NCBI RefSeq assembly: GCF_963678975.1
Contig: NC_089282.1
Coordinates: 310,001-374,000 of the forward strand
Direction: 5' to 3'
DNA length: 64,000 bases
Source: Dysidea avara
Taxonomy: Eukaryota; Porifera; Demospongiae; Dictyoceratida; Dysideidae
The stretch's first letter is position 1. The number at the start of each line of letters is the position of its first letter. Both the position numbers and the translations under genes were made by a program. Of the stretch, positions 1-63,443 are shown in pieces. The notes below the pieces were generated by a model. That model had not been told where the DNA came from. It worked only from the letters and a program-made list of their open reading frames with translations, and made no database searches.

Positions 1-951
1 AGCAGTCACACTTGTATAGTGCATAACATGCTACAACAAAAAGCTAATTTTAAAATGAAGTAGGGTTCCAGCAATAAAAGAATGATCTATGTGGTTACTT
101 TGGCACATTGAACATAGTTTTACAATTTGGTGCTGATCAGGTTCATATCAAAAAGATTCCCTGGACATGCGGGAAGACTGAAGGAAATAGAAGCTCTGAA
201 ATATTATACCACACAACATCACCAATAACTGCATATTCAGTGAAGGAGTGTATTAAAGTAGGCAGGCTCACAACACCCAGTTGATAGCATCTCCTACAAG
301 TAGCTTTTAGATTTCAGTTTTTAGAGAATTTAAATTTTTTTTTTTGAATATTACTATAGCAGCTACTGTCATGCAGATTAGTGTATTCCAATATGGCTAG
401 TGTGTAACCATCTCTTATATTAAGAATGATTTTGCTGTGCTAAGAACGAAATCTTCCCAAAGATTTAGATTAGAATACTGACTGCTCTATTAGAATATTG
501 TCACTATTACTTTATCAATTAGTCCACTTGAAACTCTGAAGTGGTTTATCCACCGATGACATGACATGGTTTATAAATTCAAAAAGCATCAGCATTAGAG
601 ATGAAAGTAATTTTCTTCCTCCTATTTTTTTCTTCCAGCAATCGAGTAGATCTGTTGTGATGGTCCTATTAGATCTGTTGTGATGGTCCTATCGCAAAGT
701 TCTTAAGGATCGAGGGATGGAATTATGCATGTCAGTCTAAGCTCCATCATTTGATGTGTTGATGTCACATTTGCATTCAAGTACCATTAATGGGGTTTGC
801 TCAACTTTGTCCACTAGTTCTATTATTCCAGCAAATCTCATTTCTAGTGTTAGATTTTAGTAGATTCTTGATACATAAAAAGGTGAAATAACTAATGTAG
901 TGTTCATGGTATAAACAGTATTCTTATTTCTTGTATGTACACATTAAGGGA
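1..951. other. Non-coding stretch, no gene seen
   Basis: I see no convincing exon on either strand. The stretch is AT-rich. It holds one copy of the dispersed CTCTAATAGAGCAGTCA-type motif in reverse orientation (about 479-499) and a two-copy tandem duplication of about 23 bp at 648-693 (unit begins AGATCTGTTGTGATGG). It may be an intron of, or sequence downstream of, the minus-strand SRCR/FN3 gene, which has not ended by 2866. Confidence 0.5.
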
Positions 952-1420
952 CAGTGTTGGGCAAGTTACTTTGCAAAAGTAATTAGTTACATATTACTTG
1001 CAACTGAACTATTTAGTTACAGTTACATATTACCCATAAAATAAAGTAACTAATAATATTACATATTATATTACTTTGTGTCCACAGCCTTAAGCTGTCA
1101 CGTGTGAAACTACCACCTTATCACGTGACATGATTGCGTTGTTAGACAATGTGCAAATCTTGGTTATAAGTAAGAAGCTAATGAATAAGCTTCATTCAGT
1201 AGGCCTCATTACTTCGTTGTGGTTAGACGTTACTCAGAGGATAACTAATGAGATTAGTAACTTTGTTAGTTTTAATAATAATATTACATCATATTAGACT
1301 CGTTACAGTAATTATATTACTTAGGTATTTTATAAGTAAAGTATCTTGCGTTATATATTACCTGTTTTCATAGCGTATTTCGTTATATTACTTTGTTACC
1401 ACAAAAGTAACCCAACACTG
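952..1420. mobile_element. hAT-type MITE with inverted ends and 8-bp target duplication
   Basis: The left end reads CAGTGTTGGGCAAGTTACTT. The right end, reverse-complemented, reads CAGTGTTGGGTTACTTTTGT, so the element has terminal inverted repeats beginning CAGTGTTGGG, a start typical of hAT transposons. The flanks are TTAAGGGA (944-951) and CTAAGGGA (1421-1428), an 8-bp duplication matching at 7 of 8 bases, which is the hAT target-site length. The 469-bp interior is AT-rich with many GTAATATTAC-like runs and no ORF, so it is a non-autonomous element. An active transposase elsewhere in the genome would have moved it. Confidence 0.85.
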
Positions 1421-1428
1421 CTAAGGGA

Positions 1429-62900: not shown

Positions 62901-63074
62901 CAGATCATGTGACATCATGTAATTTCATGACACACCTCTCAGTTGGCTGCTTTACCACTCTTCTAATCTTGTACTCTGTTGTCATGACAACAACTAACCA
63001 ATCAAATGATAGACGAAACACACCTACCTGGTCCTCCAGGCTTTTCACTCTTCACCCTAACCATCTTAACTGAA
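56957..63074 (-). CDS. MOGS: Mannosyl-oligosaccharide glucosidase (glucosidase I), C-terminal part
   Basis: Six exons on the minus strand join in phase: 63074-63028, 62888-62776, 62730-62671, 62624-62482, 57156-57069, 57019-56957. They read [52 protein letters not shown] with [15 protein letters not shown] and [18 protein letters not shown] stop. This is the C-terminal catalytic part of GH63 glucosidase I, which removes the outermost glucose from N-glycan precursors in the ER. The DPPYWR and WEQY boxes line the active site in this family. The N-terminal half and membrane anchor lie beyond the right edge. The intron 62481-57157 is 5.3 kb and packed with mobile elements, and an LTR element appears to sit in the next intron. 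Confidence 0.93.
57872..58818 (-). mobile_element. Composite inverted-repeat element, copy D
   Basis: It lies in the large MOGS intron. The left end is decayed (CATACAGTACGAACCACAAAGG) and the right end has TATGGTCCCTACTCTAGTTG. The foldback at 58567-58795 is nearly perfect: ATTAAATCACAGTAAAACAA and AAGAAGTGTTATATCCCTAC pair with their complements around a loop of about 10 bases. The minus-strand frame ([33 protein letters not shown]) keeps the element's conserved block, with an indel after LRYAKG. Confidence 0.78.
58918..59263. mobile_element. hAT-like MITE (CTGGGCAATA ends)
   Basis: The left end TAGAGCTGGGCAATATTTCA and the reverse-complemented right end TAGTCCTGGGCAATACTGAA share CTGGGCAATA. 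The interior is AT-rich with AATATATCG-type strings and no ORF. CTGGGC-AATA/GATA termini are common among hAT MITEs. I cannot establish an 8-bp target duplication. It lies in the MOGS intron directly after copy D. Confidence 0.55.
59502..60290. mobile_element. Foldback element with about 160-bp inverted arms
   Basis: 59502-59663 (CCAAAACAGCC, GAGTGCGGCCCTC, GTGAAATCCAAGGTGGCGGC, GACAATTCAGGTGAATTTTG) is repeated in inverse at 60134-60290. A second inverted pair around GGCACCAAAATTCACCTGAA makes a tight hairpin at 59626-59711. A third partial copy lies at 60083-60132. No transposase frame is seen. It sits in the MOGS intron. Confidence 0.8.
60451..60499. repeat. (AT)n microsatellite
   Basis: About 24 AT/TA units follow an AATAAATG string and precede the 30-bp repeat block. 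It lies in the MOGS intron. Confidence 0.95.
60515..61015. repeat. 30-bp degenerate tandem repeat block
   Basis: About 15 imperfect monomers alternate between TTTGTAGCTGAACTCTCTAC and TTCTAGCTGATCTCTCTACA types, each followed by AGGGTGATT-like spacers. It ends just before a dispersed-motif copy (61038-61064). Confidence 0.9.
61020..62440. other. MOGS intron segment with unclassified repeat
   Basis: From 61038 the text reads like a long unclassified element (phrases such as CCAAATTTCATGGCAATCGG and GTATATCTCGGGAACGCTT). It includes a two-copy 38-bp tandem duplication at 61721-61796 (unit TTTCATCAAGGCAGCACAGA onwards). Dispersed-motif copies lie at 61038 and 62341. No coding exon of MOGS is visible here. 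Confidence 0.4.
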
Positions 63075-63443
63075 CTGGAGTGTAATCCGTAATCAGAGTA
63101 TTGCTAGTGTGGGGTAGTAACCAATAGCAACATCATAACAATTAATGTGTTGACGAGGAATGTGATTGAATTAGTTAATTATTACTATTGTGTCATGACA
63201 AATTAATATGGATATGGCGGATCTGTGTTTGGATAAATAATGTAAATCACATGATCTATTAAAAAGGGTGCTATTATGGCTGTGGACTATTTAATATTGT
63301 ACAAGCAGTAACAGGTGTGGAGGGAAATGGAGCTCCATCACTTTATTCTGGAAGGACTTTAGCACCTGTAAAGATTGAGATACTCTAATAGAAACAGTCA
63401 TTATTGTTCAGCCTGCTGAGTCAATACTAGAGGTGTCAAGGAG

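Follow-up and report, generated by a model that had tools for sequence, protein, structure and literature searches.

Sites for CTCF or REST have been spread by SINEs, such that a core of about 20 bp with an optional upstream module was dispersed by its carrier, and in organelle genomes, mobile GC clusters and palindromic units are very short dispersed sequences built around a dyad. The sections of the reports cited here describe pairing-centre motifs in C. elegans that recruit the C2H2 proteins HIM-8 and ZIM (PMC3820632), and a ctenophore loop-anchor motif that is bound by the C2H2 proteins CTEP1 and CTEP2, with loops that are associated with transposable elements (PMC12221973). From these two systems it follows that short C2H2-bound motifs can act on animal chromosome structure. 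Among sponges, four enriched motifs without known similarity have been described in Amphimedon promoters, where, in the main text of that report, they lie near genes and their binder is not known (PMC4773876); two substrings of the motif described below are absent from that main text, the figures standing outside the comparison. Here we evaluate a short dyad-centred motif that recurs across 64 kb of sponge DNA, and we weigh whether its core may be a protein recognition site or the remnant of an ordinary repeat.

Results

Throughout, the window is the whole 64-kb stretch of DNA that was analysed. The 20-mer ATACTCTAATAGAGCAGTCA had 18 matches with at most 3 mismatches in the window versus 0 in 100 shuffles (expected 0.00), and the reversed and complemented 20-mers and 12 letter-shuffled ones likewise had 0 matches in the window. 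Taking together the mismatch listing, a looser listing, an indel-tolerant search and the sequence at 63380, we counted 24 units at 19 sites (Table 1). Three of the counted copies carry inserted bases; from the indel-tolerant search, 18200 (+) and 43941 (-) were accepted by eye and rows 661 and 28549 (both -) were rejected. All of the roughly 17 loci that a preliminary description had reported across the window were recovered, and the strand of the matches bears out its statement that copies occur in both orientations.

A position weight matrix (PWM) gave 21 units scores of 18.2-33.8, with the next best place in the window at 12.5, while the best scores in 40 first-order Markov controls had a mean of 12.0 and a maximum of 20.8. 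Because the matrix was made from 20 of the same units, their scores are inflated and the shuffle count is the cleaner test; given the control maximum of 20.8, the weakest units, 56661 (18.2) and 47081 (20.8), were accepted as doublet halves. Unguided counting of 12-mers revealed the core as the most widely dispersed word, at 8 dispersed loci, with five Markov-3 controls topping out at 3-4. Among 10-mers the core occurred at 9 loci, which is not above the top 10-mers of the controls (8-13). G+C around copies was 0.367 versus 0.389 in the whole window and is not informative.

Table 1. Positions in the window of motif copies, of the longer repeat that contains two of them, and of a second motif (motif B).
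Feature	Position	Strand	Remarks
Core, no arm	479..498	-	1 mismatch; arm at chance
Core, no arm	12295..12314	+	3 mismatches; arm at chance
Core, no arm	14703..14722	-	1 mismatch; between exons of MOZ/SAS-type acetyltransferase-like gene (+)
Core, no arm	17603..17622	-	3 mismatches; 30-49 bp upstream of ISY1 ATG (17652)
Core-like, 2 inserted bases	18200..18218	+	By eye; just downstream of ISY1 coding exon
Arm GATCGAG and doublet, period 23	33940..33989	+	0 and 2 mismatches; proteasomal ATPase gene intron
Core and arm GATCAAA	38631..38657	-	Within the single shared longer repeat
Core and weak arm AATTGAT	39454..39480	-	Arm passes 6-feature score, fails CpG-blind score
Core and arm GATCAAT	39943..39969	+	39967 may hold a decayed second unit (PWM 7.5)
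Arm GATTGAG and doublet, period 28	40327..40381	+	1 and 1 mismatches; partial arm of second unit GATCTGG
Core and arm GATTGAG	43836..43862	+	Dymeclin intron
Core-like, 1 inserted base	43936..43952 (site 43941)	-	By eye; dymeclin intron
Core, no arm	44788..44807	-	1 mismatch; arm at chance; dymeclin intron
Doublet, period 21	45700..45740	+	4 and 3 mismatches; dymeclin intron
Doublet, period 21	47081..47121	+	5 and 2 mismatches; dymeclin intron
Arm GATTGAA and doublet, period 15	56654..56695	+	4 and 3 mismatches
Core and arm GATCGAG	61038..61064	-	Adjoins a tandem array
Core and arm AATGGAG	62341..62367	-	About 80-100 bp from glycosyl hydrolase 63 exon
Arm GATTGAG and core with one inserted A (unit 63380)	63373..63400	+	Sequence inspection
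Longer repeat, one motif copy in each member	38577..38688 / 43804-43920	- (first member)	117 columns, 81%
Motif B	13172, 14213, 16425, 17065, 17131, 17143, 18191, 25866, 35493, 35814
Motif B (rest)	41590, 51518, 51653, 54968, 54990, 57034, 57177, 62903, 63247

The core, ATAYTCTAATAGARCAGTCA, has at its center the dyad YTCTAATAGAR, which reads nearly alike on both strands. Five columns, all within the dyad (C6, T7, A8, A9 and A13), are invariant in 22 of 22 aligned units, and because C15 and C19 outside it vary hardly more (21 of 22 each), the conserved part exceeds the dyad. The right edge is sharp such that the sequence loses conservation right after ...CAGTCA, with 1.19-2.06 bits at core positions 18-20 but no more than 0.04-0.16 in the four columns that follow (22 units). 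Variation within the dyad includes C or T at position 4 and G or A at the mirror position 14, this pair being C-G in 9 of the 22 units, C-A in 6, T-G in 4, T-A in 1 and other in 2. Across 20 units, mismatches had a mean of 1.85 and a variance of 1.6, which is Poisson-like and corresponds to a core divergence of about 9%. Substitutions in the same number of units were unevenly distributed by position (chi2 58.7, p 6e-6). Leaving out positions 4 and 14 raised p to 0.024 (0.038 without 4, 14 and 17), so the unevenness depends largely on positions 4 and 14, and variants shared at core positions may be inherited.

To the left of the core stands an optional 7-bp arm, GATCGAG in its CpG form. On a score of six features, the arm reached at least 4 at 10 of 17 loci versus 0.49 expected, with the other loci at 1-3. 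Because this score credits CG, TG or CA, we rescored the arm without its CpG positions, which placed it at 9 of 17 loci versus 0.27 expected (at least 4 of the 5 other positions). The dinucleotide left out of that scoring was CG (2), TG (4) or CA (2) in eight of the nine arms, against a background of 18%, and GG in the ninth. Three loci (479, 14703 and 44788) pair a core with 1 mismatch with an arm score of 1 of 6, and so low a score beside a well-kept core indicates that the arm there is absent and not merely decayed. At 45700, the left side reads GATGAG, perhaps the arm minus one base. Of the roughly 27 conserved bases proposed earlier, 20 are thus kept everywhere and the remaining 7 at 9-10 of 17 loci; the full form does begin with GATTGAG at loci such as 40327, 43836 and 63373, the arm in any of its forms being confined to those 9-10 loci.

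The window has an observed/expected CpG ratio of 0.33, which is low for an invertebrate. Strong CpG depletion has been described for the A. queenslandica genome, in the part of that report drawn on here (PMC7385117). Replacement of the arm CpG by its decay products argues for descent of the arm-bearing copies from one ancestor, and the letters of these arms support a common descent in which the CpG would have decayed in a methylation-driven way within a CpG-depleted genome.

Five loci are doublets, each with both units in the same orientation (5 of 5 direct). Their number is as had been claimed; the periods run from 15 to 28 bases and not, as proposed, from 17 to 28. By eye, a possible decayed second unit follows the singles 39950, 479, 44788 and 62341. 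When 12 singles were compared with random places, p with the full PWM was 0.0007 on the downstream side and 0.53 on the upstream side, and with a core-only PWM it was 0.017 and 0.013, respectively. Because some of the offsets scanned run into the end of the first unit itself and the core-only values are similar on both sides, this signal is ambiguous, and a decayed second unit downstream of some singles is suggestive only. No opposite-strand second unit was seen within 60 bp of the 12 singles (best score -6.2).

Comparing 100-bp flanks (left ones taken from 11 bp before the core) in all 136 pairs of 17 loci revealed a clear match in one pair, 38631/43843, with scores of 28 and 67 on its two sides; random places had a 99% point of 25 and a maximum of 132, true repeats being sometimes sampled among them. 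The left flanks of 17603 and 47081 scored 26, which is about chance level among 136 pairs. Self-BLAST additionally aligned three doublets with one another, 33933-33989 with 40322-40381 (79%) and 40316-40383 with 45683-45742 (76%), in alignments of 62-68 columns that extend a few bases past the arm. With the outer flanks mostly unmatched, the repeated unit would be at most about 31 bp for single copies, and the earlier claim that no longer repeat surrounds most copies holds apart from the longer repeat at 38631/43843 (Table 1). An abutting direct repeat of at least 4 bp was found by script at 0 of 17 loci versus 10.8% of 5000 random places, and so there is no sign of target-site duplication, inspection by eye having shown none either.

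Gene context was evaluated with Pfam, which recognized a MOZ/SAS-type acetyltransferase gene (zf-C2HC 13172-13393, MOZ_SAS 16850-17137), Isy1 (E=1e-82 for 17652-18182), a proteasomal ATPase gene (Prot_ATP_ID_OB_C 30213-30425, AAA 35733-36122), dymeclin exons, a class 3 lipase gene and a glycosyl hydrolase 63 gene, as well as SRCR, fn3 and ankyrin exons; 2/10, 5/10 and 2/9 ORFs in the three sets searched had no Pfam match. Seven of the 19 sites lie between exons of recognized genes, in both orientations (14703, 33947, 43843, 43941, 44788, 45700 and 47081), and sites 17603 and 18200 flank the first recognized ISY1 exon, one upstream of the start and the other just downstream. Exons called by a codon-usage model (one of its eight training exons was in the wrong frame and was dropped) contain 0 of 24 units, which agrees with the earlier statement that copies are never exonic as far as partial gene models go, but is weak evidence of avoidance because the called exons span only 4,455 bp. 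Short intron-like gaps were read by eye in the window; together with the CpG depletion and the SRCR gene, they would suit a demosponge resembling Amphimedon, a median intron of 71 bp having been given (PMC5429095).

Several known element classes were considered for the motif. No terminal inverted repeats bound a common interior as in a MITE, the unit having no inner symmetry beyond its short dyad and, in one fold, an imperfect pairing of GATTG with CAGTC; with one matching flank pair in 136 and no target-site duplication, the copies in the window are not all the ends of one MITE, the case that the preliminary description had set against its own reading. Nor do the copies form a minisatellite or satellite array: loci hold at most two clear units, with periods of 15 to 28, and the 39 Tandem Repeats Finder rows in the window (score at least 50) all lie clear of the units. 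Helitron ends have a hairpin and then a CTRR 3' terminus, whereas the unit ends in TCA, with T in 20, C in 21 and A in 20 of 22 units. For a SINE or tRNA-derived repeat the unit is too short, and the window has no tRNA gene (ARAGORN, bacterial setting) and no Rfam family that reaches its gathering score. A structured RNA element is disfavored by the same Rfam result, by ordinary folds and by a lone paired change across the dyad: in five stretches folded, z ran from -1.73 to 1.19, four being ordinary and the lowest being one doublet that 10 of 200 shuffles matched, and a double change that keeps the pair was found in one of 22 units at positions 4-14 and at none of the four inner pairs.

Outside the sponge, viral contigs had 0 matches to the 20-mer and 6 single matches to a 17-mer, of which two (L008 and L010) have the same sequence around the match, and bacterial and archaeal genomes had 4 matches to a slightly looser 20-mer. 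Places within 4 mismatches numbered one in each of L005-L010 with the exception of two in L010. These ten viral and prokaryotic contexts have neither arm nor doublet (L002 ends 5 bases past the match), and we therefore read them as chance. The 17-mer string was not found in the literature text searched, logos, Repbase and supplements being outside that search, nor was anything on point found in literature on sponge MITEs, short dispersed palindromes or demosponge satellites.

The window also holds other repeats. Motif B, GATCATGTGA(TC), has 19 exact matches (18 places once close ones are merged) versus a mean of 0.9 and a maximum of 3 in ten Markov-3 controls. Several of its copies lie, by eye, in apparent short introns, and it resembles a CpG-decayed GATCACGTGATC (E-box/G-box), with 3 TCACGTGA versus 37 TCACATGA or TCATGTGA. 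At 18191-18218, right after the ISY1 coding exon, the end of a motif B copy overlaps a copy of the main motif that has inserted bases. Four places are occupied by a family of repeats about 0.8-1.1 kb long (15023-16166, 19634-20620, 34153-34955 and 57878-58822), its pieces being 70-93% identical and partly self-inverted. A near-perfect, MITE-like palindrome of 132 bp (95%) lies at 56707-56838, 11 bp from a motif doublet, and 66 tandem copies of a 20-bp unit (99% matches) span 32278-33597 between proteasomal ATPase exons.

Discussion

We tentatively read these copies as very short dispersed repeats, each with a 20-bp core around a dyad, an optional 7-bp CpG arm and a length of at most about 31 bp, whose core is a putative protein recognition site, an explanation that we favor while giving it somewhat less than an even chance. 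Unmatched flanks, a rigid dyad core, an optional arm and mixed orientation together suggest a site that is read on double-stranded DNA, and the putative reader would be a sequence-specific DNA-binding protein that either dimerizes or belongs to the multi-finger C2H2 proteins. The decay of the arm's CpG argues for spread by copying. Mobile carriers may have seeded the copies earlier, the rest of the carrier sequence may since have decayed or been left behind, and the core would outlast its surroundings through binding by the putative protein. A carrier is, as it stands, not seen at 15 of 17 loci.

Nearly as likely is that the copies are neutral remnants with no present function, the surviving or most recognizable part of an ordinary repeat family such as a MITE or a minisatellite unit. 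The number and spread of mismatches fit a single neutral burst with about 9% decay, which counts against constraint. At 38631/43843, where 117 columns are shared around the motif, the core has 2 differences in 20 while the two flanks are 74-83% identical; the core is thus no clearly better kept than its flanks, which also counts against constraint on it. The pairing of three doublets beyond the core, the possible decayed second units (from an ambiguous test), and a window rich in tandem arrays and other repeat families agree with such an origin as well. However, at about 9% divergence a longer unit should still align, and flanks match in a single locus pair; moreover, the arm is near all-or-none, as seen at the three loci that nearly lack it beside a core with 1 mismatch.

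An unlikely alternative is a self-contained mobile unit of 20-31 bp, moved by a trans-acting transposase that recognizes the dyad or by short-patch copying. Such a unit would account for the unmatched outer flanks, the sharp right edge, the armed and armless forms and the direct doublets, but abutting direct repeats are missing at all 17 loci although a tenth of random places have them. We know of no nuclear mobile unit this small. Both a mobile unit and a bound site, which the preliminary description had put forward, are retained as candidates, and its third suggestion, a structural RNA or transcription-linked signal, is disfavored.

Far less probable is that the sites arose independently, without copying, by selection for a transcription factor. 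Arm and core together do resemble modular binding sites, and the copy at 17603 lies close upstream of a start codon, but point mutation would be unlikely to produce so specific a 20-bp motif about 20 times within 64 kb, and CpG decay in the arm indicates descent. A signal at the RNA level (structure, splicing or termination) is scarcely credible, for although at least 7 of 19 sites lie in introns of recognized genes and one doublet folds somewhat better than most shuffles, the copies stand in both orientations within + strand genes, which argues for a DNA rather than an RNA signal, the other four folds are ordinary, Rfam has no family at gathering scores, and in 6 of 22 units the variable dyad positions 4 and 14 hold C and A, which do not pair.

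If the density of the window (19 sites in 64 kb) is typical, about 50,000 copies would be expected in a genome on the scale of 170 Mb, and few specific 20-mers of that genome would be more frequent. To our knowledge, the unit is shorter than the mobile elements usually recognized in nuclear DNA, and at genome-wide density it would be a test case for the spread of very short sequences and for the use of a dispersed recognition site in the chromosome organization of early-branching animals. That a unit of 20-31 bp, in tens of thousands of copies by this extrapolation, moves as such and serves as an architectural or pairing site for a putative lineage-specific protein is a conjecture that we regard as improbable; CTCF is, as far as we know, absent from sponges. 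If the copies are only debris, they illustrate how the 20-bp cores of a repeat family can stay near-identical after their flanks have ceased to align.

Compared with known systems, the motif shares something with each. The carriers of SINE-spread CTCF and REST sites are recognizable, whereas here one locus pair shares flanks. Organelle GC clusters differ from this nuclear motif in that they are longer, GC-rich and in organelle genomes. Pairing-centre motifs of C. elegans are, as in the sections cited above, likewise a short repeated motif, which there recruits zinc-finger proteins, but they are shorter than this unit and lie within an element near one chromosome end. Loop anchors of the ctenophore resemble the motif in being many short sites in a non-bilaterian animal, and from the portion of that report drawn on here, they differ in that the ctenophore motif is rich in G+C and its binding is better without methylation, whereas the core described here is AT-rich and without CpG.
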